Source: Megaustenia siamemsis (lineage: Eukaryota > Mollusca > Gastropoda > Stylommatophora > Ariophantidae). From it: a stretch of 64,000 nt of DNA. The notes under the pieces are model-generated. The model was not told the DNA's origin, searched no databases, and saw only the letters and a program-made list of their open reading frames with translations. The position numbers and the translations under genes are program-made. How positions within the stretch are numbered: the first letter of the stretch is position 1; the number at the start of each line of letters is the position of its first letter. Location: NCBI GenBank assembly GCA_032433765.1, contig JAVIAB010000101.1:59836092-59900091 (forward strand), given 5' to 3'. Shown in pieces: positions 4,124-63,094 of the stretch.

Positions 4124-4159
4124 CGCATGCGCCACTAATCTGTGATTGAATATTGTAAT
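4124..4159 (-). CDS. Micro-exon 23 (36 nt), ITIFNHRLVAHA
   Basis: The donor is GTAAGTGTG and the acceptor tttcatgttttttag. A nearer AG would give 16 nt. It is the last exon seen; no stop codon follows in the remaining 4.1 kb. Confidence 0.45.
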
Positions 4160-4199
4160 CTAAAAAACATGAAACGTAATTAGAATATTAGATTAGTGA

Positions 4200-5040
4200 G
4201 AATATGCATTGAGTCAAAGTCTGGGCTCATGCTTAGAAAAGTTAATTGCGTCAAAGTCTGGGCTCATGTTTAGAAAAGTTAATTGCGTCAAAGTCTGGGC
4301 TCATGTTTAGAAAAGTTAATTGCGTCAAAGTCTGGGCTCATGTTTAGAAAAGTTAATTGCGTCAAAGTCTGGGCTCATGTTTAGAAAAGTTAATTGCGTC
4401 AAAGTCTGGGCTCATGTTTAGAAAAGTAAATTGTGTCACAGTCTGGGCTCATGTTTAGAAAAGTTAATTGCGTCAAAGTCTGGGCTCATGTTTAGAAAAG
4501 TTAATTGCGTCAAAGTCTGGGCTCATGTTTAGAAAAGTTCATAGCGTTAAAATCTGGGTTCATGATTAGAAAAGTTCATAGCGTCAAAGTCTGAGCTCAT
4601 GATTAGAAAAGTTCATAGCGTCAAAATCTGGATTCATGATTAGAAAAGTTCATAGCGTCAAAGTCTGAGCTCATGATTAGAAAAGTTCATAGCGTCAAAA
4701 TCTGGGTTCATGATTAGAAAAATTCATAGCGTCAAAGTCTGAGCTCATGATTAGAAAAGTTCATAGCGTCAAAATCTGGGTTCATGCGTATACAATTTCA
4801 TTGCGTAAAAGTCTGGGCTCATGGTTGTAAATATTCATTGCGTCAAAGTTTGGGCTCATAATTAGAAAAGTTCATTGCGTCAAAGTCTGAGCTCATGGTT
4901 AGAAAAGTTCATTGCGTCAAAGTCTGGGCTCATGATTAGAAAAGTTCATTGCGTCAAAATCTTAGGGATCATGCGAAGAAAATTTCATTGCGTTAAAGTC
5001 TGGGCTCATATTTAGAAATGTCCTTTGCGTCAAAGTCAGA
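4200..5040. repeat. 37-bp minisatellite, about 22 copies
   Basis: The unit carries gcgtcaaagtctgggctcat and gtttagaaaagttaatt; spacing between successive matches is exactly 37 bp. The first part is nearly uniform; from about 4540 two variants (gggttcatg and gagctcatg) alternate, making a 74-bp higher-order unit. The final copies decay into the RTE region. Confidence 0.95.
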
Positions 5041-5140
5041 CCACAGGTTAGAAGAGGAGTACCAGCTGCAGAGACTGTTCTTTTTTTACCATATGCCGGA
5101 AGTAACATTTTGCAATTCTTAGTTTTAGCCATGGTGTTAT

Positions 5141-5588
5141 TTCTTTTCTCAATATTCATTTATGGTGCAGAAACATGGACATTAGACAAGAAAACAGAAC
5201 ATAGAATTGAAGCCTTTGAAATGTGGATATATAGAAGAATAGGTAGAATTGAATGGAAGGAAAAGAAAACAAACGACGAAGTCTTAAAACAACTAAAAAT
5301 GAAAAGAGAACTACTAAACACATTTCAAACAAGACAAATGCGATTTTTGGGTGATGTTAAAAGACACACCAACCTATTAAAGGTAATCCTGGAATGGAAA
5401 ATACAAGGTAAAGGAGGCAGAGGCAGAGGCAGAGGCAGACCAAGACTAACATGGACGAGTAACATCAAAAGATGGACAAATCAGCCTATGACAACCTACA
5501 CCATCAAAGCAAGAGACAGAGCAGAATGGCGCTCCATCGCAGCCAACCTTCGTTGCGGAGAGGGCAGTCGATGATGATGATGATGATG
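5141..5588 (+). mobile_element. RTE-A LINE, 5'-truncated C-terminal copy (nested)
   Basis: An open frame of about 150 codons encodes the RTE C-terminal region: the ETWTLDKKTE block, the FEMWIYRRIGR block, KEKKTN, then a basic RGRGRGRPRLTW stretch and a tail rich in GATGATG. It lies in the opposite direction to a second RTE-A copy that flanks it on both sides, with tgttat at both junctions (5135-5140 and 5590-5595), as expected for insertion into that copy. 5' truncation is typical of target-primed reverse transcription. Not autonomous. Confidence 0.85.
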
Positions 5589-5590
5589 TT

Positions 5591-6785: not shown

Positions 6786-6815
6786 TGGCAGTTTCGTATT
6801 CATCAAAGTGTTCAC
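6786..6815 (-). CDS. Micro-exon 22 (30 nt), VNTLMNTKLP
   Basis: The donor is GTAAGTAATTG; the acceptor atatcttctaag ends in AAG instead of the usual YAG. Hydrophobic at 1, 4, 5 and 9. It is very similar in form to exon 10. Confidence 0.65.
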
Positions 6816-7156: not shown

Positions 7157-7195
7157 ATTTGCTCGTTCGTACTCCAGGCATCTAATGGCAGTGGT
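7157..7195 (-). CDS. Possible micro-exon 21 (39 nt), TTAIRCLEYERAN
   Basis: The donor GTAAGTAGACTC is good. The acceptor gggaccactcag is weak, and an alternative AG would give 25 nt. The frame is open. It holds the only cysteine in the series, and its pattern fits poorly. Confidence 0.35.
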
Positions 7196-7671: not shown

Positions 7672-7692
7672 TTCTCTTAAAAAATTTGCAAT
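7672..7692 (-). CDS. Micro-exon 20 (21 nt), IANFLRE
   Basis: The acceptor is aattatcttctttttcag, one of the best here; the donor GTAATTAATATG is non-consensus. The peptide matches exons 6 and 15 in pattern. Without that match I would rate it lower. Confidence 0.58.
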
Positions 7693-10878: not shown

Positions 10879-10908
10879 TGCCAGAATTCCAGTTAGCGCG
10901 TCAGCAAA
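10879..10908 (-). CDS. Micro-exon 19 (30 nt), FADALTGILA
   Basis: The acceptor is caatgttttcttag and the donor GTAAGTAATGAGG. Hydrophobic residues at 1, 5, 8 and 9. Confidence 0.75.
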
Positions 10909-14280: not shown

Positions 14281-14954
14281 TAAAACCGTATTAAACATAG
14301 TTTATCGGAACTAAACTACAGCTACAAGAAAGGAGAGTTATGACTTCCGTGTTCTTTGTTTGACACTATGGGAACCGTTGTTATAACCATCGACCGTGCG
14401 TTTGTATCGTGGTGCAGTTCGTTTCCTTCTTTGATATTAAGAACATGAAGATCAGCCAAACAACATGTGAGAAGCCTTGATTTATGACGTTTAATTCACC
14501 ATCGCAATATCCTAAGCTTGTTTGTTCACACATATACATCGATGTGTTGATTCAAGAATATCTGGCAGGCGTTTGTTTCTGCTTTTGCGTTGATTTTTTG
14601 GACAAACTGAGGACCTCCACATTTTCTCTTCCACGACATATGTTGATTATTTTACTTACGCCTTGTGCAAACAACAAATCCAAGTTCTGAAATACAAAAG
14701 TGATGTTTTAATTAATTTTGTCCCCTCAACAAAGCCATCTACGATTTGTTGACCTATTGACAATGTATAAAGTGACTGTCATATTTGACTGTCACTCGTT
14801 TTATGTCGAACTCTTTAATCGTATACTTGATCTTGTATCCGTATTCCCAAGTTAGACGCTTTAGATGTGATGTCTTATCTGGCCATTGTTGAGCAGAATA
14901 GATGACAAAGTGCAAATGTTATGGAAACGACGAAACAAAAAGTGAACAAAGTGT
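14281..14954. other. Intron sequence around micro-exon 18
   Basis: Nothing recognised besides the exon at 14660-14686. Confidence 0.5.
14660..14686 (-). CDS. Micro-exon 18 (27 nt), NLDLLFAQG
   Basis: The acceptor is acttttgtatttcag and the donor GTAAGTAAAATAATC. The next intron is 3,751 bp and carries two RTE fragments. Confidence 0.7.
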
Positions 14955-15242: not shown

Positions 15243-15796
15243 TATAGTATGAAAAAAAAGTATAACATAAAGTGTGTGCAATATTTTCTTCTATAGTCAA
15301 TGGACAGTATAATCACACTTTCTTTACGGTTCACACATACTTTAAACTCATGTTTTATATTCTCCAGAATTATAATATCGACATACGTTATTTCACCTAC
15401 TTCTATAACGCTACTGGTACACATAACTTACCACTGACGTGGTTACACTGTTAACATTATAGACAAACTGGGAATACACGACGTTAAATATTGCATGAAT
15501 ACATTAGAACACCTATTCTGTTAAATACATAACACATTTATTCAGTATATTTAAACACAAGTACGATGAGTTAATGGAGAGTTCCAGAATTTGGTAGATT
15601 GATTCTTGTGTGTTGAGCATGTCTGATTTCAAAAAGTAGAAGTGAACGTCATTTGCTGAAAACTGCACACATTGAGCTTGACTAAGTTGCGTCCACTTTA
15701 GAACCATGTCATCTGCTATGATATGAACCGTCTAAATACGACTACCACGGGATAATCGGAACGCTATATACATTATCATATTTTGATATAATATTG
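15243..15796. other. Intron sequence around micro-exon 17
   Basis: A 21-nt window at 15345 with GTATGT donor and a GAG acceptor was considered as an exon and not accepted. Nothing else. Confidence 0.4.
15432..15467 (-). CDS. Micro-exon 17 (36 nt), FVYNVNSVTTSV
   Basis: The donor is GTAAGTTATG and the chosen acceptor cgtgtattcccag. A nearer AG would give 16 nt, which breaks the phase. The 36-nt reading is open and hydrophobic at 1, 5 and 8. Confidence 0.5.
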
Positions 15797-16392: not shown

Positions 16393-16894
16393 TGATGAAC
16401 AATTCTTAATAAATACAAGAGGCGTAAACGCTTCTAGTACGCCCGTGTGGTCCTGAGCAACAGTCGTATGGTATATTGTAATTGTCTGAGGTGGTCCTAG
16501 AATTGAAAGTTGTATGTAGAAGGTGAGCGTTGTATCCTCACCTTCAAGGATCTGGCCTGGGTAGACGGGTTGATATCAATGAAAATTATATATTTGGTAA
16601 TTTACTAGTTTAGTGGGTCATATTAAGTATGTCTTATGACAGTATCGTCCCCTAACACTTTATTTTCTTGCTCTAGAATATTTCATGAGATGAACCCTGG
16701 GTTAGGTTTATGGATTGCCTACAACTAACCATAAATCTAACCCTAAAACTTGACAACAAATTAAAATATGTGTACACGTAATAGAGACAAATGATAATTC
16801 AAGTATGCCCCGTCAGTGAGGGTAGATCATTCGTTTGGCAGAAATAATTTGAGAAACTAAACTCGTAAATTACCTATATAGATGACTTGGTGCA
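16393..16894. other. Intron sequence with a small hairpin
   Basis: gaaggtgag and ctcaccttc form a perfect 9-bp inverted pair near 16519-16547. No gene recognised. Confidence 0.4.
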
Positions 16895-17456
16895 TACGTC
16901 ATGACTACGAGTAGCATGACAATGGAGGTGATGGCAGTGACCAAGGCATTCAAATGGTTAGAGTCACAAGGCTACATCCACGCATGTATACTGAGTGATT
17001 CGATGAGCATGACAAAATAAGTGGAGCCAGGCTATATACGCATGCAATGGGTAGAGTCAATGCAGAAGTCCAAAATACGTAAGGTCACCTTTAGCTATGT
17101 CCCTGGACATGCGTGAGTATAGGGAAATAAAAGAGCGGACAGGTTGGCTAGCTGCGCTGTCGTTGAGGACGGGCAACCAATGGATCGGGCGGACATCATC
17201 AATGCCCTCCGAGATGTGGGAAAAGCACATGAATCGACAAACACAGATTCACGTCACTTTTTGGATGATGGAGATGGAATTTAAGATGGGCACAGCCAGA
17301 AATGAGAAACTTAGTGGACGTGTAAGAGGACATATCAACCAACACAGAATTGTAGTCGGCAGTCGCTGGACACTGTGGGACTTGCTGAGGACGAGATCTG
17401 AGCACCTATGGACATGTTCGAAGTGCAATGATGATGACCCGTAAATAACTCAAGTA
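16895..17456 (+). mobile_element. RNase H LINE, C-terminal fragment
   Basis: Parallel to 39600-40169: the MTMEVMAVTKAFKWLES block, the VPGHA block and the C-terminal HLWTCSKCNDDDP. Contains stops. Followed by a TA-rich tract, as at the end of the large copy. Confidence 0.8.
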
Positions 17457-18489: not shown

Positions 18490-18519
18490 TGTCACTGTTT
18501 CCTTGATAGCATTGAGTAT
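18490..18519 (-). CDS. Micro-exon 16 (30 nt), ILNAIKETVT
   Basis: The acceptor is cgatgtgttctcag and the donor GTAAGTAACGTGATC, nearly identical to the donor of exon 10. Hydrophobic at 1, 5 and 9. Confidence 0.75.
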
Positions 18520-22272: not shown

Positions 22273-22293
22273 CTCTTCTACCAATTGTTCGAC
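22273..22293 (-). CDS. Micro-exon 15 (21 nt), VEQLVEE
   Basis: The acceptor carries a long T run (gttttttttttaaattgtag) and the donor is GTAAGTCAG. The peptide is one heptad with hydrophobic residues at 1, 4 and 5. Confidence 0.72.
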
Positions 22294-23405: not shown

Positions 23406-23689
23406 AAAAACAACAACCTGCATAATGTTCTAATATTTTACCAAACTACTGACTATCATGACTGCTTGCTACCAACAGTTTCCCAGGACGCCAAAGGTCA
23501 TACACGTATGTCTACTATCATGCATTATCCCGTAGTTTACCTTTTTCACTCGTTCTGCCCGGGCATTATCTCCAGCCTACAAGTAAACCAAGGGACAGTT
23601 TTATACATTAATTTTCACTTCTCTTTTTTTCCAAATACATTTAACATAGATTTTATTGTATTTTTAAAACGTGATAATTAAAACTAGAT

Positions 23690-24800: not shown

Positions 24801-24830
24801 TGTTACGTCATTACTCATTGCGTCTTTAAT
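24801..24830 (-). CDS. Micro-exon 14 (30 nt), IKDAMSNDVT
   Basis: The acceptor is ttcgttgctctcttag and the donor GTAAGTGTTTTG. Hydrophobic at 1, 5 and 9. Confidence 0.75.
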
Positions 24831-26080: not shown

Positions 26081-26101
26081 TTTCTTTATAGTTGTATATA
26101 T
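26081..26101 (-). CDS. Micro-exon 13 (21 nt), IYTTIKK
   Basis: The acceptor is taccttcaatctcag and the donor GTAAGTGTCATAATT. Isoleucines at positions 1 and 5 match the pattern. Confidence 0.68.
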
Positions 26102-38542: not shown

Positions 38543-38547
<5 letters not shown>

Positions 38548-42739: not shown

Positions 42740-44021
42740 GGAATATTTGGTAGTTCAAAGTAAAAAAAAATGGTAAACAAAATGTAGCCGCTGTTCAGAG
42801 GGAAAAAAGTGTTTTGGGGGAAAAAAAACAAATCAAATAATGTAGAAAAAAGGCACCCATGTGTCGGACCGAAATACGAAGATATCGCAGCTTGCCTTAA
42901 ATTAGCGACAACACGCATTAACGCCATCATAACGGATAAACTTTGAAAAGTAACAAAATAAACAACCATCGATATACAAATAATTATTTAAATATATGTT
43001 AGTTCATGTCTATCACGTGGTATCATATTTTATCACATAATTTGACGTCACAGTCAAGCTCTACATAATTAAAGATGATGCAACTACAGACAACTGAAGT
43101 TATTAACGTCATTGTTGTTTTATAGTCTACCTTTGTATATGTTGGTTGTCTGTTTGTTTCTCAAGCCACAAACTGTCAAGGGTTTCTCTCTGTGGTAAAT
43201 TTTAACGCACGGCTGCTATTTTAACTTTAATGACCACATATAACAGCAAAACACAGTTCACAAACACTTTTTATGATTAATTGTTCACAATTAATTATAG
43301 TTGATATCACATTACGTACATAGTGAGATTCATATGTAATCTCAAAGAGAAATTAATTACTGTCAAAGTTAGTCATACATTTACAATTTAAAGATAAGTA
43401 ATTCTTAATTGTATTTTTGGAATAGAAAATTGTATAAATCAGCATTAATCTCAACAATCCGACATATATGTCAAACTTAGAGAAAGTCAAAGAAAAGAAA
43501 ACATTTCAAAAAATGATTACATGAGCTTTCAAAGCATTGAAACAAGCAAATATATAAACAAAGAAGACGATATAAGGAAGAGTGTTGGAGATAAAAGTAA
43601 CGATTTCTCAGTGTCAGTTTTAACAGCGATGTTGATGAACATTGATAATTGGTTATGGTCTTTTTATTTTTTATGTTATTATCTGTGTATCCTTGGGTTC
43701 GTGATCATATAGTGGCGTTAATGATTTACTTCGTGTGTGTTTCTTGTACTGTTAATATTATTATTATTAGGCACTCTTGCCTCATCCACGCCTCATCAGA
43801 ATATAAGTAGCTTTGTGGTCAAAGTTTTAACCAAACTTACCTAGTGATAATAAATGAATAAATTCCATTAGATTTTACGCTTAATATCTCTATATAATAT
43901 AATTAATCTAAATATTATAGATAGATAATATCAATATATCTGTTTTATGAGGTGGGAAAGAAATGGGAACGTGCATGTTGTTTCTGTAAACATATTTTAG
44001 CTTATAAATATCATTGCTTCT
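42740..44021. other. Intron sequence
   Basis: No supported gene or repeat; ATT tract at 43756-43770. Confidence 0.5.
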
Positions 44022-44817: not shown

Positions 44818-44838
44818 CTGTTGAACTATTTCTGCTAT
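44818..44838 (-). CDS. Micro-exon 6 (21 nt), IAEIVQQ
   Basis: The acceptor is aatttataattcag; the donor GTATATAAT is weaker than the others. The peptide fits the shared pattern well (hydrophobic at 1, 4 and 5) and resembles the exons at 22273 and 7672. The next intron is the longest found, 8,466 bp, so an exon may be missed there. Confidence 0.65.
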
Positions 44839-45239: not shown

Positions 45240-47150
45240 AAAGTGGGGTACATGCAGGAAACACACGCAAGATTTTATTTTAACCCAAACACATTGCGTT
45301 CATTGCAGGAAACACCCTTCAGATTTTACATCGTCCTAAACACATTGGGATTCTTGCATGAAACACACTTCAGAGTTTACTTTGCCCTAAACACATTGAG
45401 CTCTTTCCAGGAAACACACTTATAGATTTTACTTTGACCTAAACACATTGAGCTCCTTGCAGGAAACACACTTATAGATTTTACTTTGACCTGAACACAT
45501 TCAGCTCCTTGCAGGTAACACACTTCAGATTTTACTTTGACCTAAACACATTGAGCTCGTTGCAGGAAACACACTTATAGATTTTACTTTGACCTAAACA
45601 CATTGGGATTCTTGCAAGAAACACACTTCATATTTTACGTTGCCCTACACACATTGTGATTCTTGCACGAAATGCACTTTAGATTTTACTTCGAACTAAG
45701 CACATTCCGCCCCGAGCAGGGAACACACTTCAGACTTTACTTTGACCTAAACACATTGGGATTCCAGCAGGAACCACACACTTCAGATTTTACTTTGACC
45801 TATACACATTGAGCTCCTTGCAGGTAACACACTTCAGATTTTACTATGACCTAAACACATTGAGCTTCTTGCAGGTAACACACTTCAGATTTTACTTTGA
45901 CCTAAACCCATTGAGCTCCTTGCAGGTAACACACTTCAGATTTTACTTTGACCTAAACACATTGAGCTCCTTGCTGGAAACACACTTATAGATTTTACTT
46001 TGACCTAAACACATTGGGATTCCTGAAGGAAACATACACTTCAGATTGTACTTTGACCAAAACACATTGAACTCATTGCAGGAAACACACCTCAAAATTT
46101 TACTTTGACCTAAACACATTGAGCTCCTTGCAGGAAACACACTTAGAGATTTTACTTCGACCTAAACACATTGAGCTCCTTACAGGAAACGCACTTTAGA
46201 TTTTACTTTGACATAAATACATTAAGCTCCTTGCAGTAAACACACTTCAATTTTACATTGACCTAAACACATTGCGTTCCTTGTAGGAAACACTTCAAAT
46301 TTTACTCTGACCTAAACATAATGAGCTCCTTGCAGGAAACACACATCGGATTTTACTTTGACCTAAACACATTGAGCTCGTTGCAGGAAACACACTTAGA
46401 GATTTTACTTTGACCTAAACACATTGAGCTCGTTGCAGGAAACACACTTAGAGATTTTACTTTTACCTAAACACATTGAGCTCGTTGCAGGAAACACACT
46501 TAGAGATTTTACTTTGACCTAAACACATTGAGCTCGTTGCAGGAAACACACTTATAGATTTTACTTTGACCTAAACACATTGAGCTCGTTGCAGGAAACA
46601 CACTTAGAGATTTTACTTTGACCTAAACACATTCCGTGTGTTACCGGGGCTTCATTATGAGGGAAGTAGAGAATAGTGACACTGTGACCTTCCAGGCATG
46701 TCGTAAGAGGCGACTAAGGAGGTTGATCGATGGCTTGACAAGCTGTCATTGTAAAAAGTATTGTTATGGAAACAGAGCCATAGATTTTAGAAGTGGTGAT
46801 CTCTGCAATATGTGCCATTTTGGCATGCAAGGTTTCTGCTTTTGAGATTGTGGTTCTGCCCTATGTGCCGTCTTCGGCTCGAAAGGACAATAGATAGATA
46901 GATAGAAACACATTGAGCTCCTTTAAGGTAACACACTTTAGATTTTACTTTGACCTAAACACATTGAGCTCCTTGCACGAAACACACTTAGAGATTTTAC
47001 TTTGACCTAAACACAGTGGGATTCTTGCAGGAAACGCACTTCACATTTTACTTTGACCTAAGCACATTCCGCCCCGAGCATGGAACACACTTCAGATGTT
47101 GCTTTGACCTAAACACATTGAGCTACTTGTGGGCAACAGACTTCAAAGAG
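45240..47150. repeat. 51/52-bp minisatellite, about 31 copies
   Basis: The unit has gaaacacactt, agattttactttgacctaaa and cacattgagctc. Two subtypes (cttcag and cttagag or cttatag) are interspersed. A 272-bp element interrupts it at 46634-46905. Confidence 0.93.
46634..46905 (+). mobile_element. SINE-like insertion in the minisatellite
   Basis: Bounded by the 9-bp aaacacatt at 46625-46633 and 46906-46914, and ending in a (GATA)n tail. It includes gcatgtcgtaagaggcgact with a short GTCG/CGAC hairpin. No clear tRNA head, so the source of its promoter is unknown. The tail and duplication point to LINE-driven retroposition. Confidence 0.75.
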
Positions 47151-47305: not shown

Positions 47306-49418
47306 TAGCTCGTTTCAAATCACTTGCCCAACTTCAAAACGCTATTGCTCAGAAACCGTTTGTTAAATACTGTTGAAATTTTCCAAATGTTATTAGAATG
47401 CAAAAGACCCTTTAAATGTATATTTAACAAATATCTTGCAGCTGCAGTTTTCTTAAAGCGACGAATTTCTTTGATGTTTGTCAAAATATTAAATTGTGAA
47501 CCCCTAAATAATAGAAATTGTCGTAGTTGCTGGTCTATGATTAATTTTCACTAGGTAAAGGCGTGGCCGTAATGGGGAAATAACTGAATAAGGAAAAACA
47601 CCAGGAGGATTATTGTCTTCTCAGTTCGAGGACGGACGATAATATCAAGGTATATCTGTATGTCGAATTTTCATAGTTGTGTGGTCCTGAAAAGGACCGT
47701 TTGTTGAACTAATTTAAGGTAATATAGGGGCCAACATTGTGGGGGCTATATACTTTCATTCTGAATCAGACGAGTCTAAAAGATTAATAACTGTTTGGGG
47801 TTGAACATTCCACAAACCATCATTTTTCCAATATTCCTCTTCCTGTTTTAAGACGTGGTCTTCACATTTAGCCCAATAATCTTTGTCTATATTTAATAAA
47901 GCGAGATTAGCAAGAGTCTTTACATCGCATATTTTGAATGTTGTATTTTCATCTGCCACTTGTCCTTTTAATTTTGCCCAGATTAGTTCTATTGGATTTA
48001 AATGAGCATGGTAAGGTGGCAGCCTCAAAACTTATATGACCGTGCTCTTGGATAATCTTATCTATTTGAACAATCTTTGTCCTTTGTTTTTGCTTTACTA
48101 GAGATAGTAATTCAGGTTTTAAGTACATGTTATTAAATTGTATGTGCTCCTTTGTGAGCCATATCTTAATAGCATCTTTTGTAATGGATGACGTCGGGAT
48201 TTTATCTTCAAGTGCAACAATGTTGTGGTACGCTGTATTGTCCATTATTAGGCAAGATGGTCGATCTAGTGATGGGAGAACAGAATTTTCAATTCAATGT
48301 CTAAATATGTGACCTTTCATCTCAGAGCGATAATCCCGATTGTCTATGGATTTTGATAGAAAAATGAGCTCTGCATTCTGTATTAGTCCATGTTGTCGAC
48401 TACCTGCATGAGCAATTATCAAGCGCTATCCTTTGCTGTTAGGTATTAATCTCTTAATCTTTCCATCTGATGACTGCCATTCCCTTTGGTTAGTGTGGTG
48501 AGCATTGATCCATGTTTCATCCAAGTACACAATATCATAACCTTGCATGCGCACCTCTTTTACTTCACGTAAGTACTTGCTTCTCATGACTACTATATGT
48601 GGCTTCTCACAGATGATGTTTCGTCCATTGGAATACTTTCTGAATGTAAACCTGCAGCTCTCACATTCCTCCATAATGTAGACTTTGATATTTCAATACT
48701 GTTGTTCTTTTTCAGCGAAACTTTTAATTTTCTTATTGTAACAGTTTCATTCATACCCAACATTTTGCGAATTTCACTTCTAATAAGTTCACTGTCGAAA
48801 TTATCCAACATTTTTGCTCTTCCTTGTGATTTTGTATATTTTGAACATTGACGGTCACGTGCTTGAATCCAGCGATTAAATAACCGTTCAGATAAATCCA
48901 AAATGTGTCTTGTCCTATTCTCAGGGTTTTCTAAAGAATGAAATAATCTTCCTCGTTTAGCATCTTTGCAAAAATAGTCATACATTTTTATTGCGATGTT
49001 TTGTAAACTGCAGAATTTCATTTTAAGACTCATGATAAATGTTATTGTTCCACGTCTACACCTATGAATGAACGGAAATGGAACACACAATTTGTCGTGT
49101 TTTTTACAAGTGTCTAATTGTGTCAAACAAACCACGGGGAAAGCGTGCAAATTCGTCAATTCTAACGTGTATGGATTTGTACTCGCTATTTTTAGTTTAA
49201 AATACTGTAAACATTAAGTTTTGACTACATCAATGGGTCGTTATAAATTTATATAAATCAAATAAGCAACAATAATAACCAAATGTTTTTTTTTATGAAA
49301 TTAATTCCCTGTTGGGTTCTAATCATTATAACTTTACATGCAAATTTTGAATATCTTACAACAAGCGGTTAAAAAGCTATCGATTTGAAAAGTTGGGCAC
49401 GAGTTATGAAACAAGCTA
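47306..49418 (-). mobile_element. Tc1/mariner-superfamily transposon, DD82E-like, inactivated
   Basis: Imperfect terminal inverted repeats of about 55-60 bp: tagctcgtttcaaatcactt at the left and tagcttgtttcataactcgt read inwards from the right, both next to TA. The minus strand encodes a transposase in pieces: helix-turn-helix region (49159-48593), first aspartate in YLDETW, second in IMDNTAYH, glutamate in LNPIELIW. About 83 residues separate the last two, far more than in classic Tc1 (34) or mariner; this fits the DD82E group named Sailor. Breaks: frame shifts near 48650 and 48035, stop codons near 48426 and 48300. Confidence 0.82.
47756..49159 (-). pseudogene. DD82E-like transposase pseudogene
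   Basis: Four overlapping frames (49159-48593, 48674-48426, 48245-47949, 48028-47756) cover helix-turn-helix, catalytic core and the C-terminus. The conserved RLPPYHAHLNPIELIWAKLK stretch is in a different frame from the preceding EHGHIS, one base apart. Function when intact: cut and paste of the element at TA sites. As it stands no continuous protein can be made. Confidence 0.85.
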
Positions 49419-50287: not shown

Positions 50288-51576
50288 CAGTAAAGTCTCG
50301 ATTATCCGGAATGCTCGGAGAAGAACCCATTCTGGATAATTGAATTTTTCTGGATAATCGAGAGTAAGAAAACCAAACTCAAAATTTATGAAAAAACATG
50401 ATTGAAAAATTGCAATGCTCAGAAATATTTAAATTCGTGTGACATTCACTAGCTTTCTTTATCAACATGGGTCCTGATATTGGCATTCCTTTTCTTATTC
50501 TTTCTAAAAACCACACATAAAGGACGTCGTCGAGTTTTTCAAATTTTGGCCGTTTCATACTTCGTCTCTGGTGTATATTGTTGCTGCTTTCAGACTCCGA
50601 CGCAAACTTAAACAACTCATCTTTTTGATTTCGTATGTCATATAATGTTGAAGAGGCTATGCCAAATTCAGTCATCAAAACGTTGCGATTAACGCCTTTT
50701 TCAAGTCTACTAGCGATTTCAATCTTCTGGTTCAGTGTCAATACAGTTCGCTTGCGTTTACCTTTGCGGGAAATTGAGGTGTGGTTTGCACTCGCAGAGG
50801 CCATTATTTAACACAAAAATGTATTCCGTTAAAAAGTATGCACACATGCGTTTATAGCATATCATGTATAATTTATACTGATGGAACGAATTTCAGCTTG
50901 CACAAATGTCTGAGACAAACTAACGTCAAACTCTGTATCTTACTCTTTTTGAATTTCCAGTCGGTAATTTTTGAACCCCTCCCCCTTTCTTCTCACCCTC
51001 TCTATGTCACTGCACGCCGGCTGCTCAACCTTTGATTTATAATCATCAAAGTTATGGGCTCTTCAATTTTCACAAACAATACGTCTGCTTCTAATGTTCG
51101 GTCAGACTGTCAAACGCCATATTTTTGACAAATTCATGACCAACTTTAGATCTAAAGCAGGCTATGAGAAAATTAAGCAAATTTGTAAAATCATGTAGAT
51201 AAGTGTTTTTGGCACGACTAAGATTTCCCGACAAAAACATTTAGTCGGGGGAAAAAGTGAAGATATAGACTGTCTGTCGCTTTTACTTGGAATATTTGGA
51301 GACACAATGTCTGGATTGAATAAAATATGTTCGCTCCTATTTGAAGTATATTACTGTAAATACACTATTGTAAACGCAATATTGTGTAATGATAGAGCCT
51401 GTAGAAGTAAGCGCAGCGCACAAACCGTGTTGTAGCGTTTTCGATTTCCGGATAAAGGCATTTAATTTAACTGAACAAAACATGATTCAAGCTTTCTCCC
51501 TATAATAATAAAAAAAAAAAGTCCGTTAAATTGAGAATTCCGGATTATTGAGTACCGCATAATCGAGACTTTACTG
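50288..51576 (-). mobile_element. pogo/Tigger-type DNA transposon, internally deleted
   Basis: Both ends begin with cagtaaagtctcgattat (18 bp perfect, then CGG), flanked by TA on each side, the pogo target. Length 1,289 bp. Subterminal tctggataat repeats follow the left end. Only the N-terminal DNA-binding part of the transposase remains, so it depends on a full element elsewhere. Confidence 0.9.
50379..50804 (-). CDS. Truncated pogo-type transposase (DNA-binding part, 141 codons)
   Basis: Begins MASASANHTS, then a basic KGKRKRTVLTL stretch leading into a helix-turn-helix of the CENP-B N-terminal type (LNQKIEIASRLEKG and FGIASSTLYDIRNQK, about residues 23-60). The second DNA-binding helix bundle starts at RPKFEKLDDVLYVWFLERI but breaks off after GPMLIKKA; the DDE catalytic domain is missing. 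The start methionine is the first in frame. Pogo transposases of this sort are about 450-600 residues. Such a DNA-binding stub could still bind the element ends; expression is not shown. Confidence 0.8.
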   Translation of the reverse strand: MASASANHTSISRKGKRKRTVLTLNQKIEIASRLEKGVNRNVLMTEFGIASSTLYDIRNQKDELFKFASESESSNNIHQRRSMKRPKFEKLDDVLYVWFLERIRKGMPISGPMLIKKASECHTNLNISEHCNFSIMFFHKF

Positions 51577-51581
51577 TATAT

Positions 51582-51626
<45 letters not shown>
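51577..51626. repeat. (TA)n tract, right part
   Basis: Joins directly to the truncated coding end of the Penelope-like element. Confidence 0.9.
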
Positions 51627-51627
<1 letters not shown>

Positions 51628-51634
51628 GTATGCC

Positions 51635-52645
51635 CATACATTGAACACGATAATCGTCTACCAGACTCGCCAATATAAGTCATGTGGCATCGTTGGCATA
51701 TGATAACATAAATGATGTTACGGGACACACACGTGAAGCCATGCTTGATCTCGAAACGTCCATTAGAGAATAAGACCGAGTCATTAGGGAGCTCATACGC
51801 ACAGGTGATACAGTTCCAACCACAAGGGGCCGTGCCGAAGTGTTGATGGTCGGAGCGAGGGAGATGGCTCATAACCAGAATATCTCCCAAATTCGTGTGG
51901 CGCTTGAAGGCGATCATCGGAGGATCACTAAAAGGTAGAAGGGTAGTGGGATCAGAGAGGAGAATGGAACGGCAGCGGTTGAGTATCTTCACAGCAGCTA
52001 AGTTGTGAGGATGATATGTGAGGGTGAGTATAGTTCTCTCAGAAAGGGGGGGGGGGCGGTTGAAAGGAGTGAGTGCCTCGGGACGGGAGATAAGGTGGAC
52101 CCGCTTGAAGGCAGACTGGAGGATCGAGTCTGGATAAAGCCGGCGGCTGAAGAAACCTAACATAAGGTGAGCCTGTTGGGGGAAATCTTGGTCATCCTGG
52201 CAGATGCGACGGAGACTCAATAACTGTGAGAATGGAATTGAATCACAACAAGAAGGTGAATGTGATGAAGTATAGAGAAGATAACAATGGGCGTCTGTGG
52301 GGTTATAGAAAACCGAGGTGTAGAGGCCAGAAGTAGCCAAAGAAACAATAAGATCTAGGAAGGTAACAGAGGAAGTGGATATACAAGATGTGATCTTGAT
52401 AGCCTTGTGATAGCTACCAATGTAGTCGATAAACCTGGAGAGGCCATCCTCAGGTAGATCGGTAAGTCCGAAGCAGTCATCAATGTATCGGAGGTATATG
52501 ATGGGAAGGGGACCTTGATAAGAAGTGAGAATTTGGTGTTCAACGTAACCCATAAATAGGCAAGCATAGCTGGGGCCCATCTTGGTGCCCATGGCTAATC
52601 ATCTAACTTGGTCATAGAAGTTACCATTGAAATCAAAGATCATTT
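51635..52645 (-). mobile_element. Penelope-like element: reverse transcriptase plus start of GIY-YIG domain
   Basis: The 376-codon frame (52592-51462) contains MGTKMGPSYACLFMGYVE, the catalytic RYIDDCFG box, a conserved HPHNLAAVKIL and FKRHTNLGDIL region, a CGWNCITC cysteine cluster and IIYVIICQRCHMTYIGESG, the beginning of the GIY-YIG endonuclease domain. This order is diagnostic of Penelope-like elements. Upstream, FNGNFYDQVR is followed by a stop in frame near 52600, and homology ends near 52645, so the N-terminal part is lost. The last codons of the frame run into (TA)n, so the nuclease is cut. Confidence 0.88.
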
Positions 52646-52685: not shown

Positions 52686-52706
52686 CCTGCGTGCAAAATG
52701 TATTGT
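52686..52706 (-). CDS. Micro-exon 5 (21 nt), TIHFARR
   Basis: The acceptor is tttactcttcttcag and the donor GTAAGTAATATGATC. It sits just beside the broken 5' end of a Penelope-like element. The next intron is 7,847 bp and holds nested transposons and the 52-bp minisatellite. Confidence 0.7.
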
Positions 52707-54192: not shown

Positions 54193-54489
54193 GTACAAAA
54201 CCATGTTAGATGAGTCGTTCATTTTCCATTCCATCGCCATTATAATCCTACAAGCATTTAGAGACAAAAACGTACTTGAAAGCACCCAAATCTCTGCTCA
54301 GCTCGTGTATGATATCAAAGCTAACATATCGATGTTGCAATAACTGAAAATCGAATCTAGAACTAGAAAATAGAAAAAAAAAAACTGTATTCGAAAATAA
54401 ACATCTTCGGAGTCTTTTAAACATGTACTGTTAGTGTTTTATACTAAAAGAAAATATACATAAAAAACAAAACAATTAACAATATGTTA
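54193..54489. other. No feature seen
   Basis: Nothing supported. Confidence 0.4.
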
Positions 54490-54783: not shown

Positions 54784-54813
54784 TTCAAGAAGTTGGTTCA
54801 TTGTTTTCGCAAT
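54784..54813 (-). CDS. Micro-exon 4 (30 nt), IAKTMNQLLE
   Basis: The acceptor is tacatacttatcag and the donor GTAAGTAATGTGATG, one of the extended donors shared with exons 5, 7, 10 and 16. Hydrophobic residues stand at 1, 5, 8 and 9. The next intron is 2,077 bp. Confidence 0.75.
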
Positions 54814-57038: not shown

Positions 57039-59150
57039 TCATCATCATTGAGTGCCGTCTCCGCAACGAAGGTTGGCTACCATGGAGCGCCATTTTGCTC
57101 TATCTCTTGCTTTGATGGTGCAGGTTGTCATCGGTTGATTTGTCCATCTTTTGATGTTACTCGTCCATGTTAATCTTGGTCTGCCTCTGCCTCTTTTACC
57201 TTGTATTTTCCCCTCCAGGATCACTTTCAGTAGGCTGTTGTGTCTTTTAACATGGCCTAAGAATCGCATTTGTCTTGTTCTAATTGTGTTCAGAAGTTCT
57301 CTTTTCATTTTTAGTTGTTTTAAGACTTTGTCATTTGTTTTCTTTTCCTTCCATCCAATTCTACCTATTCTTCTATATATCCACATTTCAAAGGCTTCAA
57401 TTCTCTGTTCTGTTTTCTTGTCTAATGTCCATGTTTCAGCACCATATAGGAATATTGAGAAGATGTAACATTTTGCTATTCTTAGTTTTAGCTCTGGTGT
57501 TATTTGTTTTGATGTTAGTATGTCCTTCATGACATTAAAATTACTTTTTGCCATTCCTATTCTTTTGTTTATTTCAGTTGTACATTTTCCATCACTGGTT
57601 ATAGTATGTCCAAGGTAGTTATAGTTCTGAACTGTCTCAAGGTCTATTCCTTCAATTTTGATATCCACTTGTGGGTTTTGGGTATTTTCTTTGTTTATGA
57701 TCATAGTTTTAGTCTTTTTGATATTCATATCTAGTCCATATTTTTTGCTTGTCGTGTTTATTTCATTAAGTAATTGTTGTAGGTCTTTAGGATTTTCTGC
57801 TAGTAGTACAGTATCGTCAGCATATCTTAGGTTATTTATTATCTTTCCATTAATATGTAGGCCTGGCATCTCTATGATGTTTTTAAAGATTTGCTCAGTG
57901 TATAGATTGAACAAGCTTGGTGATAGGATGCATCCTTGTCTTACTCCTCTTTTTATATCAATGGGTGTAGAGAACTCTTTGTTATATTTTATTATTGCTG
58001 TTTGCTCCCAGTATAGATTGCATATTAGTCGTATATCCATGTCATCTAGATGTATCTCTTTTAGGCATTATATAAGTTGTTTGTGGTGTACTCTATCAAA
58101 AGCTTTGGTGTAGTCTATGAAGCAGGCATATATTGGTTTGTTTACTTCTGTGTATTTTTCGATTAATGTTCTCATGCAGAATATGGCTTCTTTTGTCCCG
58201 CTATTTTTCCTAAATCCAAATTGCTGCTCATCTAATTCAGTATTGATTTTATTCTGAATCCTTCCTTGTATAACTTTTAGCAAGATTTTTGTAACATGGC
58301 TCATTAGGCTTATTGTTCTAAAGTCACTGCATTCAACTGCACCATTCTTTTTAGGCAATGCAATGAAAGTTGATGTTTTTAGTTCATTTGGTATGTATCC
58401 TGTGTGGTATATGTCGTTGCATATGTCTGTAATCACTTCAATGCCAACATCTTCAAGTGCCTGTATCATCTCTATCTGTATGCTTTCAGGTCCTGCTGCT
58501 TTTCCCCTTTTCATTGTTTTTATAGCTTTTTCCACCTCAGATTTTAAGATTTTATAGCCTGATGTACATTTTATAACTGGTTTGTTGTCCCTTTGATCAT
58601 GAAATAGTTCTGTTATATATTCCTGCCAACTATCTATGATATCCTTATTGTCTGTTAGCATTTTTCCTTTTTTGTCTGCAATGCATCCACCTTCTGTGGC
58701 TTTTTTATTTTTATTAGTCATTCTCTTTATTTCTGTGTGCATTCCTCTTAGGTCTTGTTTGCTTTCCATAGTTTCTATTTCTCTACATTTTTGGCTGAGC
58801 CAGTCTTCTTTTGCTTTTTTGCACATTTTGCGTATCTCATTATCTATTTTATTGTATTGGGCAGTGTTCTTCGCTTGTCTCCTTTCTTCCATTTTTTCTA
58901 AGATGGTGTTAGTTATCCATTTTTGTTTTTTGTTCGTTTCTCTTTTGGGTAAGGTGTCGCAGGCTTTTTGTATGCTTTTCTTTATGCATTGCCATTTGGT
59001 TGTTACTTTTTCATCAGGATTTTCTCTTCTGTATTGTTCAATTCCTTCCTCTAGCAGCTTCTGGTATGTGTTCTTTACTTGTATTGTATAGGTATCTTTA
59101 CTATCTTTTTGATTTAAAGCTGTTATGTCGAGTGGGTTTGTTGATGAATC
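57037..59150 (-). mobile_element. RTE-A LINE, longest and best preserved copy
   Basis: The minus strand is open from about 59135 to 57045 except for one TAA at 58068-58070. Domains in order: connector with lysine-rich helices (KMCKKAKEDWLSQKCREIE), reverse transcriptase (KRGKAAGPESIQIEMI, ALPKKNGAVECSDFRTISL, FGFRKNSGTKEAIF, DYTKAFDRVHHKQLI, RGVRQGCILSP, catalytic RYADDTVLL), then the C-terminal ETWTLDKKTEQRIEAFEMW region and RGRGRPRLTW. The apurinic-type endonuclease is absent: 5'-truncated. Tail is a short CATCATCATC (minus GAT) array next to (TA)n. The nearest related metazoan clade is RTE. Enzyme role: reverse transcription of its own RNA at the target. Confidence 0.93.
57045..58892 (-). 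pseudogene. RTE-A reverse transcriptase with one nonsense codon
   Basis: Two frames (58892-58068 and 58040-57045) are the same frame split by TAA at 58068-58070. The parallel RTE-A sequence at 6430 has GAA at this place, so a single G to T change separates this copy from an open frame of roughly 690 codons, still lacking its endonuclease. Confidence 0.9.
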
Positions 59151-59161
59151 AGATTTGTGTG

Positions 59162-59181
59162 TATATATATATATATATATA
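59162..59181. repeat. (TA)n tract at the 5' side of the LINE
   Basis: Second TA array, a few bases beyond the truncation point. Confidence 0.85.
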
Positions 59182-60059
59182 CGCTGAGTTGAACAGTCAT
59201 TACATTTTGATGGTAAATAAACAAATGTACACTATACGGGCAAAATATGATTTTTAAAAAATACATATTAAAAAAACATGTTATTTTGAGAATATCAATG
59301 AAATGAACAAGTAACTGCAATGTTTGTATACGTCAATTATTGATCTTTGAAAAAAATAAAGAGATGCACTAGAGATGTTATCACAATTGTTTTCTTCTCT
59401 TCTGCGACAATCTGACAGAAACCAACTTGCTTTGCTTTTAGACATATTTACATTTAACACTTTTGTTATTTACAACATCACCATTTGTGCATTATATTTC
59501 TTTCTTACTTGATTTCCACTCTCTGATACCTGATATAGACGTAACGATAATTTAGTTTGCAAATCAAGTTTCCCAAATTATTTATTTATCATTTGTTTGA
59601 TAAGTCTTGATTTCGTCAGTTATCACCATTTCCTGTACGTGTATTATGCTTCATGTTCTACATTTCAACTCATTTTTTGAATATTGTTCTTGTCCCAGAC
59701 ACTTTTTTTTCCCAGACTCGTTTTGAATGTATCTCCATTAGGGAGTTATCTCCCCTAGTCATTATTTCATACCCGTAACTACAATACACACAAGTTATGA
59801 ACAATGTTCAATAAAGAGTTTCAAAACTCATGCCCTAAAATCGTATCAAATATCTCCAAAACCATATGTAAGGACTACTATGATTACCATGACGTTATTT
59901 TTCTTTATCGTTCGCCAGCTTTTACCTCTGACGAATTTCCTTGAGACTAGGAACTGAATGTTGATTGTTAATCCATTTCTCCCTGGTAGCCGTGTTCATA
60001 TGTTGTTATCACTTTATAATTAAAGTAGTACAATCTAAACGGTTGCACTAAAGCGGCAA
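59182..60059. other. Intron sequence around micro-exon 3
   Basis: No other gene or repeat recognised. Confidence 0.45.
59509..59529 (-). CDS. Micro-exon 3 (21 nt), VSESGNQ
   Basis: The donor is GTAAGAAAG and the chosen acceptor cgtctatatcag. A second AG seven bases downstream would give a 14-nt exon that breaks the phase, so the upstream one is preferred. It lacks the hydrophobic residue at position 5. The next intron (4,695 bp) contains the longest RTE copy. Confidence 0.5.
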
Positions 60060-60165
60060 CTCCCTTTGATCTTTGTCGATTGTGTAATTCGTCTTTCTTC
60101 CTCAGTTGTCTTTCAGCGTTCAGGAGAAATTTAATTTGTGGTCGTTTCATCTTATTATAAAAAAA
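60060..60165 (-). repeat. Interspersed repeat R3, copy 2
   Basis: Minus translation KRPQIKFLLNAERQLRKKDE, related to the copies at 35085 and 61240. Confidence 0.5.
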
Positions 60166-60625
60166 AAAAACGTTGCAATACCTTAGTGGTTGAACATTTT
60201 TCCCATTACTTACACATATATTTCACTACATGCGCCATATATGTCAATTGATTACTGACTGTTTGATATCATAAATTGTTTTGAATCATTTAACATATCA
60301 TATTGCATGTGACGCATACACGTTTGGTAGTTTATGTTGCTTATGTAACAGTATAAAGATACGATTACTTACTGCAAATGTTTCATTCTGAAATAGATTA
60401 TTAATGGTCACTGTCATCAATTTGTTATTATAGGTAGAGGAATGAATATATAAAAGGCAGACATTAGAAGTTATCATTTAAGTACAAATTTATTCTTTCC
60501 AAAGAGTGCCTGGAACAAAGAGAACAACTTGTGGTGACTATAATAAACAAGTGCCTTCTATTCTCCAGAACAAGGTAAACCCTTTACACAGTAACAATGT
60601 ATCATTCATTTTCATCGCCTGTCTT
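60166..60625. other. Intron sequence around micro-exon 2
   Basis: Nothing else recognised. Confidence 0.45.
60373..60387 (-). CDS. Micro-exon 2 (15 nt), NETFA
   Basis: Shortest exon found. The acceptor is ataatctatttcag and the donor GTAAGTAATCG. The strong splice signals support it more than its five codons do. The next intron is 843 bp. Confidence 0.6.
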
Positions 60626-61745
60626 AATAAAGATAATTCCTTCTCATTGGATGGCTAAATAAAGATAATTCCTTCTCATTGGATGGCTAAATAAAGATAA
60701 TTCCTTCTCATTGGATGGCTAAATAAAGATAATTCCTTCTCATTGGATGGCTAAATAAAGATAAATCATTCTTAATGTTTGACTAAATAAAGATAAATCA
60801 TTCTTATTGTTTGATTAAATAAAGATAATTCTTACTCATTGTTTGACTAAATAAAGATAATTTATTCTCATTGGATGATTAAATAAAGATAATTCATTCT
60901 CAATGTATGACTAAATAAAGATAATTCCTTCTTATTGTATAACTAAAAAAAAGATAATTCATTCTCAATGTATGACTAAATAAAGATAATTCCTTCTCAA
61001 TGTATGACTAAATACACATAATTCATTCTCATTGTATGACTAAATAAAGATAGTACATTTTCATTGGATGACTAAAAAAAGATAATTCATTCTCATTGGT
61101 TGACTAATTATTTATATTTATAATGATAATATATATCTTTATAGATACTTTATTCTCATGTCATGACTTAATAAAGATAATCCATTCTGATTGGATGACT
61201 AAATAAAGATAATTCATTCTCATGTCATTACTAATTAAATAAACTTGTTTCTCATCCTTTTTTTCCATTTGCCTTTCAGCGCTGAAGGGAGATACAATTT
61301 GTGGTTTTTTGCTCTTTTTCTGTTGGCATCTCCTGATGTTATGTGTCATGTTTCCAAGTGTTTCTATCACTCCATCACAACATGTTTTATGTAATTGGCC
61401 CCTGGGGCTGATGTTCTCGGTATGGTTATTGAAGAGGCCGTATATTGTATTCTGATCTGTCTGCTTCATCATTTGGCCATGCCATTTTATCTGACGTTAC
61501 TGTGTGTATTCTATGGCGAGATTCACTCACATAACATGACTAAACAAAGATAATTCTTTCTGATCACATGACTGAATAAAGATAGTTCCATGTCATCACA
61601 TGACTAAATAAAGATAGTTTCTCGTTTGATATGACTAAATGATGAAAGCCGAATCTCATCTCATGAATATTAAATAGAGAGTTCCATTTCATCACATTTC
61701 TAAATAAAGACAGTTCCATCGCATCAGATGACTAAATAAAGATAA
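60626..61745. repeat. 32-bp minisatellite, about 25 copies, interrupted
   Basis: The unit is taaataaagataattccttc plus tcattggatggc; the first four copies are identical, later ones diverge. The array is interrupted at about 61238-61530 by an R3 copy and by a short AT-rich piece near 61105. Confidence 0.93.
61240..61475 (-). repeat. Interspersed repeat R3, copy 3 (longest)
   Basis: Open minus-strand frame 61472-61161; it contains DGVIETLGNMTHNIRR and KKSKKPQIVSPFSAERQMEK. The copy at 35085 shares both blocks in the same order, in two frames. Probably from a transposon protein; no domain recognised. Confidence 0.55.
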
Positions 61746-61899
61746 CTCTCTTTTCTTTAAAGGCATCAATATTCGGCCCTAATTTGGGTGTTTACACTAT
61801 TCTTTCAGTTCTTTATTATTTTTCTAACACTTTTATGTAAAAATGCACCACTGTCTGCTGTTATATTGATATGTTCGCCTATCGTATAATTGTACTAGA

Positions 61900-62112
61900 T
61901 GAAATAATCATCACCATCACCATTTGCCATACCGGATGGCGTAGACGATCATATCTTTTCACAATCTTTTATGCACAGTGCACTATATCAATTCTGTTGT
62001 TTTCTATGGCATGACAAAATGCTATCTAGTATCACTCTCTTTGTCGTTCACGATCTCTCTTTCCTGGTGTTTTGCCAGTTGTAACCAAGTATTATAACTT
62101 CCCTCTTCCTCT
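61900..62112 (-). mobile_element. RTE-C LINE 3' fragment
   Basis: Begins with a CATCACCATCACC tail on the plus strand and matches 33285-33500 (tttgccagttgtaac, agtatc). Confidence 0.65.
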
Positions 62113-63094
62113 GATGTAATATTAATAAGGTAATATTAAGTAAAGTATTAACCATTTTATAAATGCTTTGACTTTAGATTTTAGTCTTTGATCGGAATGA
62201 CTTCACAGCAGAGGTTATATTCCTATACTTGCCCCGGTGTCAACAATCAACAAAGTGTTTATCCCTTTCGTCCGTATTTATCGATTAAACATGTGTTTTA
62301 TTAAATTCCTTGTATTTACTACGTTCATACAAACTGTTCTATTGAACGTGTCGCATTAAACTAAACAAGAGGCACGCAGATCAAAACGAACTATACCGGG
62401 TCGTACCGCGGCAACATCAAAATTAGAATATTCTAGCACCATATAGTTAGAGAAGGATGAGAGAGTGAGTAAGGAATATAATAATTGTAATCGTATCAGA
62501 CTGAAGATACGCAAATAATAAAGTCTGCCAATGAAAAATATTGCCGATGTCTTGAGTTAATGATTAAGTACAATTTTGTCTCAGGTAAGGGTTTTCGTCA
62601 CTTAGGGTCTCACCAGTGTTAAGTGAACGCCTCGGAGTTAACAATAACGATCAAGAAGGAGTCAGAGAAATAACGAAGAAAAGAAGAACAGTGTCCCCAA
62701 GACACGGAAATAACGAATATAAAAAATAGAAGGGAAAAAGAGGTTGTCGCGGCACGATGACGGAAGAACGTTAACGGTCACAAACATTAATATGAACTTC
62801 CTTCATACTTACCCCTGTCGCTACTATATTCATGAAGTCAACCTGACAAGATAGTGGTTGTTACATTTTTTTTTTAAATCCCCAAATTCGAAAAAAAAAC
62901 AGTTTGCTTCTTCTATTCCATCTCTACGTTTATAATTTTCTAGTTTAACGACATGAATTAAAGTAATCTCCATTTAGTTGGCGTAACAATAAAATTATGG
63001 TGGTTCTAAATTAAAAAAAAAATTATCCGTGAAATATTCATCGCTAAAACAATTTATTTTATTTTTTGGATTAGGGTTTGGGTTAGGGTTTGGG
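62113..63094. other. Intron sequence around micro-exon 1
   Basis: Short ttagggtttgggttagggtt at 63073-63092 resembles telomere repeats but is only about 24 bp long. Nothing else recognised. Confidence 0.45.
62813..62842 (-). CDS. Micro-exon 1 (30 nt), VDFMNIVATG
   Basis: The acceptor is ctatcttgtcag and the donor GTAAGTATG. It is the most upstream exon seen. It differs slightly from the other 30-nt exons because its methionine is at position 4 instead of 5. The next intron is 2,425 bp and holds the 32-bp minisatellite. Confidence 0.7.

Follow-up and report, generated by a model that had tools for sequence, protein, structure and literature searches.

The minus strand of a 64,000-nucleotide stretch of DNA from the stylommatophoran gastropod Megaustenia siamemsis (contig JAVIAB010000101.1, positions 59836092-59900091, termed the window; assembly of 2.59 Gb in 155 contigs) carries 26 segments of 15-42 nt that are bounded by an AG acceptor and a GT donor and are open in phase 0. 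They form part of an array of at least 283 kb, which is tandemly duplicated. Most likely, these segments are micro-exons that are spliced into a long protein built of 7- and 10-residue amphipathic-helix modules; the probability of this reading is put at roughly 0.85. A sequence-only reading of the window had proposed a giant minus-strand locus of frame-preserving exons, and this proposal survives controls with the opposite strand, shuffled sequence, unseen flanks and paralogues.

The predicted exon set of the window

The sequence-only reading counted 23 micro-exons and named just two end points, 4124 and 62842, leaving the other 21 segments unlisted. To rebuild the exon set, the minus strand was scanned with a generic splice matrix for metazoans, which has approximate frequencies. 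A donor of at least 8 bits and the nearest acceptor of at least 6 bits at a spacing of 12-45 nt define 11 segments on the minus strand of the window, and nine of these are stop-free with a length that is a multiple of three (3n). The plus strand has two segments, neither of which is 3n and stop-free, and dinucleotide shuffles (n = 20) give a mean of 0.6 (standard deviation 0.9). Short 3n stop-free segments are enriched on the minus strand at 12 of 12 threshold pairs, with no enrichment on the plus strand.

Similar results are obtained with the bare hexamer GTAAGT as donor, with no donor matrix and with the nearest acceptor of at least 5 bits located 12-45 nt upstream. The minus strand contains 25 such hexamers, 15 of them with an acceptor. 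Fourteen of these 15 segments have a 3n length and all 14 are stop-free (binomial p of 2e-6 at a chance of 1/3). On the plus strand there are nine hexamers, two of them with an acceptor, and neither qualifies. The hexamer itself is biased towards the minus strand (25 versus 9, p 0.009). The earlier statement that the nearest acceptor gives multiples of three beyond chance is borne out by these counts.

Retraining of the splice matrix on 20 core exons yields four extra segments, three of which are open in phase 0 straight away. The segment 33700-33741 was first called at another acceptor with an internal stop; the inner acceptor gives an open segment of 42 nt. Among window pairs spaced 12-45 nt with at least 18 bits, 22 are 3n and open and one is not (training exons included), compared with 0.27 open segments on average in shuffles. 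The accepted set contains three exons with weak sites (23541-23576, 44818-44838 and 387-416). The latter two were admitted since the tandem copy described below keeps them, as it does 45% of decoys.

The accepted window set comprises 26 exons with 675 nt and 225 codons, in place of the 23 exons and 197 codons proposed earlier. Six of them are additions to the 20 core exons (60373-60387, 44818-44838, 33700-33741, 10879-10908, 6786-6815 and 387-416), some of which may already be among the earlier 23. The positions 4124 and 62842 are the exact ends of the strong micro-exons 4124-4159 and 62813-62842. The proposed lengths of 15-39 nt hold in so far as the exons are short, 3n and stop-free, but no exon of 39 nt is accepted and one has 42 nt. 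All accepted exons are 3n and read in phase 0, so that any of them can be skipped without a frameshift, as had been claimed. As the sequence-only reading also stated, no long ORF marks the locus and no family is recognised.

The introns range from 397 to 8,466 nt with a median of 1,933 nt, and a GTAAGT donor is present in 18 of 26 exons. Of 22 accepted exons tabulated after retraining, seven are open in frame 0 only. When 24 exons with 60-base flanks are compared with the window, they match themselves only; thus, they are not dispersed repeats. Neither a tRNA nor an Rfam family at the gathering cut-off was found in the window.

The exons are listed in gene direction with their peptides, splice scores where given, and the corresponding segment in the copy. 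Positions above 64 kb lie in the 5' flank of the minus-strand array and negative positions in the 3' flank.

62813-62842, minus, micro-exon, 30 nt, VDFMNIVATG; acceptor/donor 7.9/10.4 bits; paralogue at -37015 retains AG, GT and frame, 9 of 30 sites differ
60373-60387, minus, micro-exon, 15 nt, NETFA; 23.0 bits with the retrained matrix; copy NKIVD retains splice sites and frame
59509-59529, minus, micro-exon, 21 nt, VSESGNQ; core exon; copy VSESGYQ
54784-54813, minus, micro-exon Y, 30 nt, IAKTMNQLLE; core exon; six genomic copies
52686-52706, minus, micro-exon, 21 nt, TIHFARR; 20.2 bits; copy AIHFARR
44818-44838, minus, micro-exon on weaker ground, 21 nt, IAEIVQQ; weak sites, 8.9 bits; copy IAEKAQQ
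36331-36351, minus, micro-exon, 21 nt, VQDDRDI; 17.7 bits; copy VQDDRAI
34139-34156, minus, micro-exon, 18 nt, INMSRT; 16.7 bits; copy identical
33700-33741, minus, micro-exon, 42 nt, KIKNAVCNKSMSRE; 18.6 bits; copy KIKNALCNKSMSRE
31287-31307, minus, micro-exon, 21 nt, ALTMIQD; core exon; tandem copy
30274-30303, minus, micro-exon, 30 nt, IINWMNNKLK; core exon; tandem copy
28674-28691, minus, micro-exon, 18 nt, LAKIHE; copy with a 3-nt in-frame insertion
27149-27172, minus, micro-exon, 24 nt, NLFNLTIT; copy YYHLFNLTIT, 6 nt longer and in frame
26081-26101, minus, micro-exon, 21 nt, IYTTIKK; core exon; tandem copy
24801-24830, minus, micro-exon, 30 nt, IKDAMSNDVT; core exon; tandem copy
23541-23576, minus, micro-exon, 36 nt, AGDNARAERVKK; weak sites, leave-one-out score 2.5 bits; copy identical at 36 of 36 exon bases versus 48 mismatches in 489 flank bases
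22273-22293, minus, micro-exon, 21 nt, VEQLVEE; core exon; tandem copy
18490-18519, minus, micro-exon, 30 nt, ILNAIKETVT; core exon; tandem copy
16542-16556, minus, micro-exon, 15 nt, ARSLK; 20.1 bits; copy ARFLK
15432-15467, minus, micro-exon, 36 nt, FVYNVNSVTTSV; core exon; tandem copy
14660-14686, minus, micro-exon, 27 nt, NLDLLFAQG; copy identical
10879-10908, minus, micro-exon X, 30 nt, FADALTGILA; six genomic copies
7672-7692, minus, micro-exon, 21 nt, IANFLRE; core exon; tandem copy
6786-6815, minus, micro-exon, 30 nt, VNTLMNTKLP; 14.9 bits with the retrained matrix; copy VHTLMNTKLP
4124-4159, minus, micro-exon, 36 nt, ITIFNHRLVAHA; 16.8 bits; copy identical
387-416, minus, micro-exon on weaker ground, 30 nt, TKGRVKGLQF; weak donor, 13.7 bits generic and 9.5 bits retrained; copy TKGRVGGLQF retains AG, GT and frame

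Thirteen further candidates of the window were checked against the copy. The segment 53378-53401 passes the splice scan and was rejected because GT is lost in the copy; 32634-32666 is out of frame there, and the 39-nt candidate 7157-7195 has lost both AG and GT. Four segments (54429-54443, 3735-3752, 43320-43340 and 15341-15361) are fully kept in the copy, as are 45% of decoys, and were not accepted. The other six, including 38867-38890 and 41639-41659, are without a collinear copy and were not accepted either.

Extent and duplication of the array

The flanks were examined over 100 kb on each side of the window and, 5' of it, over a further 60 kb and 7 kb. With the window-trained matrix at a cut-off of 16 bits, 38 of the 41 minus-strand segments found up to +224 kb in the 5' flank are 3n and open, as are all 12 found in the 3' flank down to -53.6 kb. 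The corresponding plus-strand counts are 1 of 4 and 0 of 1. Many of these flank hits are copies of window exons. Two more strong segments are located at 229-231 kb on the 5' side, which places the 5' end of the array beyond +230.8 kb. The array passes both window ends and extends from -52.5 kb to at least +230.8 kb, so that the extent of 58.7 kb given by the sequence-only reading is too small. At a cut-off of 12 bits, 98 3n-open segments from -52.5 to 222.6 kb are catalogued.

Below -60 kb the minus strand falls to 1 of 2 segments at 16 bits or more and the plus strand rises to 4 of 5. Between -93171 and -60487, just past where the array ends on the 3' side, the plus strand carries a few strong segments that look like micro-exons. 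One of these at -88661 (KMKKNVICNKSMSKE) resembles the window exon at 33700. Judged from these segments, a convergent, tail-to-tail relative of the array is likely to be located here. Around -72300 on the minus strand, a conventional-looking open segment of 43 codons follows a good acceptor near the end of a long interspersed nuclear element (LINE); it is perhaps an exon of another gene.

The locus has been duplicated in tandem, with a unit or offset of 93-101 kb. One of the collinear copies extends from about -36 to 44 kb and the other from about 65 to 138 kb; their alignment (40 blocks, 34,664 columns) shows 11.5% differences. When only collinear matches are considered, a copy is found for all 26 window exons (25 in the first search). 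AG, GT and frame are retained in the copies of all 26, and 25 pass the automatic rule. The exception is 27149-27172, for which a 6-nt in-frame insertion in the copy was read from the alignment.

Two exons were admitted via the copy. Thus, the fair set for this comparison consists of the 24 exons picked before any copy was seen. All 24 retain AG, GT and frame without a stop (23 by the automatic rule). Among decoys taken from the same window, which have lower splice scores than the exons, everything is kept in 54 of 122 on the minus strand and 63 of 136 on the plus strand, or 117 of 258 (Fisher's exact test 4e-8, or 5e-7 with 23 of 24). The two changes of exon length between the copies (+3 and +6) are both multiples of three.

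Exons X and Y show different degrees of conservation. The ten residues of exon X are the same in 6 of 6 genomic copies. Its exon sequence has 2 differences in 150 sites, both synonymous, versus 72 in 941 in the flanks (p 0.002); this p-value is optimistic, since five comparisons were made among copies sharing ancestry. Exon Y retains splice sites and frame in 6 of 6 copies and its residues vary.

Putative helical modules, transposons and comparable genes

The lengths of the 98 catalogued segments peak at 30 nt (33 of 98) and 21 nt (29 of 98), and 15 nt is found in five of 98. A 21-nt exon is often followed by a 30-nt exon. This order is observed 21 times in the catalogue, recent copies included, versus 9.8 times in permutations. 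Without recent copies it occurs 6 times versus 2.8 above 138 kb (p 0.007), in the window 5 times versus 2.5 (p 0.03) and in combination 11 times versus 5.2 (p 5e-4). The 30-nt exons are mutually more alike than decoys (p 2e-4, or 6e-4 without the first residue). The same applies to the 21-nt exons (p 8e-4, or 0.02 without the first residue).

The hydrophobicity of the peptides has the periodicity of an amphipathic helix (100 degrees), in register with the exon start. The z value is 6.0 for 23 window exons, 13 for all 98 segments, copies included, and 7.7 for 23 segments located above 138 kb, with recent copies excluded. No such periodicity is observed for 18 plus-strand decoys. Of the 26 window exons, 17 encode V, I, L, M or F as their first residue. 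Across 11 consecutive pairs of 7 and 10 residues, a hydrophobic residue occupies positions 8 and 12 in 10 of the pairs; at positions 3, 7, 10 and 14 there is none in any of the 11. When the exon order is permuted, the long-range helix moment is little affected (p 0.03 to 0.24), which fits exchangeable modules. Cysteine is rare, with 9 of 885 residues in the 98 segments and one in the 26 window peptides.

Several transposons and repeats are inserted between the exons. A LINE with a reverse transcriptase domain (RVT_1) is present in two open pieces at 57048-59231 on the minus strand; over 60% of its length, one of these pieces matches a 204-residue fragment from a short public contig with 93% identity. 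A second LINE with an RNase H domain is located at 38546-40166 on the plus strand, with fragments near 29032-29648 (minus) and 17055-17441 (plus). One tandem copy contains this element as an insertion, and the other apparently lacks it. The best animal-named matches of one window LINE protein are from Elysia chlorotica (41%) and E. marginata (50%), in the best 120 of 5410 matches. For the other LINE protein they are from the stylommatophoran land snail Bradybaena similaris (61%), then Elysia (46%), in the best 120 of 122; one further named match of this protein is a bacterial metagenome-assembled genome, presumably contamination. On the minus strand, a CENP-B_N / HTH_Tnp_Tc5 transposase start (50382-50807) and a DDE_3-like piece below the Pfam cut-off (47759-48293) were identified. 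An open reading frame (ORF) of 378 residues without a Pfam match (minus strand, 51465-52598) has an end that presumably resembles a GIY-YIG (Penelope-type) element. Intronic tandem repeat arrays of 37 and 52 nt are present at 4207-5037 and 45253-46633, respectively; the 37-nt array is also found in the tandem copy.

Collagen genes contain exon units of 45-54 nt that code for Gly-X-Y. Like the array, they have 3n exons each coding for one repeat unit and spread by exon duplication, whereas the array peptides have no Gly-X-Y repeat.

The micro-exon genes (MEGs) of Schistosoma and tapeworms are described as consecutive short, mostly 3n exons with long introns and frame-safe skipping (PMC10526429, PMC4671649, PMC7653826). 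In S. mansoni, MEGs are described as having 10-20 short exons, most of them 15 nt long; the introns reach about 5 kb, a long 5' exon encodes the signal peptide, and the proteins have a mass near 10 kDa (PMC10526429, PMC4671649). Accelerated evolution is reported for MEGs (PMC4350168). One structural definition comprises at least seven exons, at least half of them micro-exons (below 70 nt, 3n), in runs of at least four (PMC7653826). The 26 predicted exons of the window fall under this definition as it is worded there, and the match to schistosome MEGs proposed by the sequence-only reading holds in this structural sense. It does not extend to the exon lengths, which peak at 30 and 21 nt in the array and not at 15 nt. 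A variable secreted product, as made by schistosome MEGs, and a place of the array within the MEG superfamily would go beyond this structural match.

As far as the cited accounts describe them, flatworm MEGs share with the array the many consecutive short 3n exons, the long introns and skipping without frameshift, and the tapeworm family also shares the tandem expansion. In contrast to S. mansoni MEGs, the array has 98 candidate segments over about 275 kb and more beyond. It also appears to differ from flatworm MEGs in that no signal-peptide exon was accepted among the candidates screened, that the peptides are amphipathic-helical and that the surrounding transposons look gastropod.

The bicycle genes of aphids, phylloxerids and coccids average about 17 exons, the internal ones tiny and of a single phase; they evolve fast and encode helical (saposin-like) products. 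Their internal exons are described as nearly all of phase 2, and many members have CYC motifs while some do not (PMC9168663, PMC13041983). Tiny exons of one shared phase and helical products (predicted ones for the array) are common to both. The array exons, however, are read in phase 0 and code for cysteine-poor, short repeats of 7 and 10 residues. The CYC motif is not seen in them, which alone does not exclude a bicycle gene. Among the papers listed by the literature searches, judged by title and opening of the abstract, none announces a micro-exon gene for a mollusc genome, which is weak evidence of absence.

Alternative readings and implications

DNA searches with exons X and Y find each of them in at least six places, all on the minus strand of JAVIAB010000101.1; these copy counts are lower bounds. 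The order X, Y, X, Y in gene direction is present at three loci (59.94-59.79, 59.42-59.21 and 66.15-65.92 Mb). At the window locus the array stops soon after the second Y. Upstream, at 141-222 kb, more diverged relatives of the same exon types are found, with the likeness judged by eye. A single giant gene per locus is somewhat more probable than a series of 100-kb genes, because X-Y-X-Y is the order at all three loci, the run of exons passes from copy to copy unbroken and a first exon common to the copies was not found. Judged by this exon order, one transcription unit per locus with internal duplication is favoured.

Alternatively, the same micro-exons may belong to separate genes of about 100 kb that lie in a tandem cluster and have individual promoters, first exons and last exons. 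This arrangement is less probable, yet a serious contender. The duplication offset of 93-101 kb fits it, X-Y-X-Y could be a duplicated gene pair, and a tapeworm MEG family is described as having grown by tandem duplication (PMC7653826). Against separate genes, the exon run goes on across the copy boundaries. Furthermore, translated comparison (tblastx) of the gaps between the copies A, B and C gives mainly stop-containing intron blocks and LINE fragments among the matches listed. In 294 kb there are 18 signal-like phase-0 candidates for a first exon running from ATG to a donor, and none has a counterpart in another copy.

A number of observations weigh against the assignment of the segments to a spliced, protein-coding locus. 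All exons are predictions from genomic DNA alone. Candidates for a signal-peptide or terminal exon were listed and none was accepted; above +100 kb these include 15 signal-like first-exon candidates, five of them in phase 0. At the 12-bit cut-off the share of 3n-open segments is lower: for the 5' flank it is 54 of 77 on the minus strand and 9 of 34 on the plus strand, for the 3' flank 21 of 34 and 2 of 13, respectively; a minority of the 98 catalogued segments is therefore false. A smaller, less strict set of 21 plus-strand decoys has a helix periodicity of 6.1 versus 11.0 for the exons. A search with the joined 208-residue peptide, which has low sensitivity for short divergent peptides and in which no MEG protein was compared directly, gave 175 word-sharing candidates, none with E of 10 or below. 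The joined peptides have no match above the Pfam cut-off, and sequences of the PDB match them only with E of 0.18 or above.

Nor do the substitutions in the exons indicate purifying selection overall. The 32 exon pairs that have equal lengths show differences at 89 of 858 sites, with a ratio of nonsynonymous to synonymous differences (pN/pS) of 0.95 (bootstrap 0.62-1.51). The changes are distributed as 35/27/27 over the codon positions. This set is biased, since some pairs were found because both members score well and the two indel pairs are omitted. The divergence of exon Y matches that of its flanks (12 of 150 versus 80 of 840, p 0.65). On average, amino acids are free to change, while splice sites and frame are held. 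Thus, the case for coding constraint rests on the frame, the splice sites and some fixed exons. Two related segments are dead, 130508-130608 without GT and 163780-163821 with stops. Both are decayed copies of the 42-nt exon and, from their sequence, represent exon birth and death.

The pN/pS near 1, the flank-like divergence of exon Y and the clearly dead copies would be expected if the array were a decaying remnant of former micro-exon genes that are now mostly pseudogenes. This is improbable, as all 24 pre-chosen exons keep AG, GT and frame versus 117 of 258 decoys and the few changes in exon X are synonymous and proportionally fewer than those in its flanks. It is even more improbable that the segments are non-coding micro-exons, either recursive-splicing intermediates or parts of a spliced long non-coding RNA. 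Recursive splicing would be consistent with strong splice sites in long introns, but 3n lengths, the lack of in-frame stops, indels of +3 and +6 and a helical periodicity in frame 0 are unexpected there. Chance AG/GT pairs picked by a reader seeking multiples of three are in effect refuted by the strand, shuffle and hexamer tests and by the flank and copy tests on data unused for picking, although such pairs are common and weak-score candidates are equal on both strands (10 and 10 in the lowest bin).

If the segments are spliced micro-exons, the locus would work as follows. The segments would be transcribed and spliced, with strong donors (mostly GTAAGT) allowing the spliceosome to use exons of 15-42 nt. 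Modules could then be duplicated, lost or skipped without a break of the frame and with little harm to the hydrophobic face of the helix, because they are read in phase 0, have a hydrophobic first residue in most cases and comprise about two to three helical turns. The weakest step concerns the product, which may be a fast-evolving, helix-rich and probably extracellular protein with an exposed face that varies between loci and isoforms.

More tentatively, and with somewhat less than even odds, these would be mollusc genes of more than 280 kb with about 100 exchangeable micro-exons, many of which encode two or three turns of an amphipathic helix. Such a combinatorial kit would be independent of flatworm MEGs and aphid bicycle genes, and duplication and splicing would freely vary the order, number and choice of exons. 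The array is read here as a known kind of architecture that was reached by convergence, in a new lineage and at a new scale.

If the array is spliced as predicted, it shows that a coding locus of hundreds of kilobases can escape gene finding that is based on ORFs and homology. Micro-exon genes would then have originated independently outside flatworms and sap-sucking insects, and at a larger scale. The unit of the exon would then be a unit of protein structure, with 7 and 10 helix residues, and duplication or skipping would edit the helix stepwise. The recurrent rise of such architectures in fast-evolving proteins would become a testable question.

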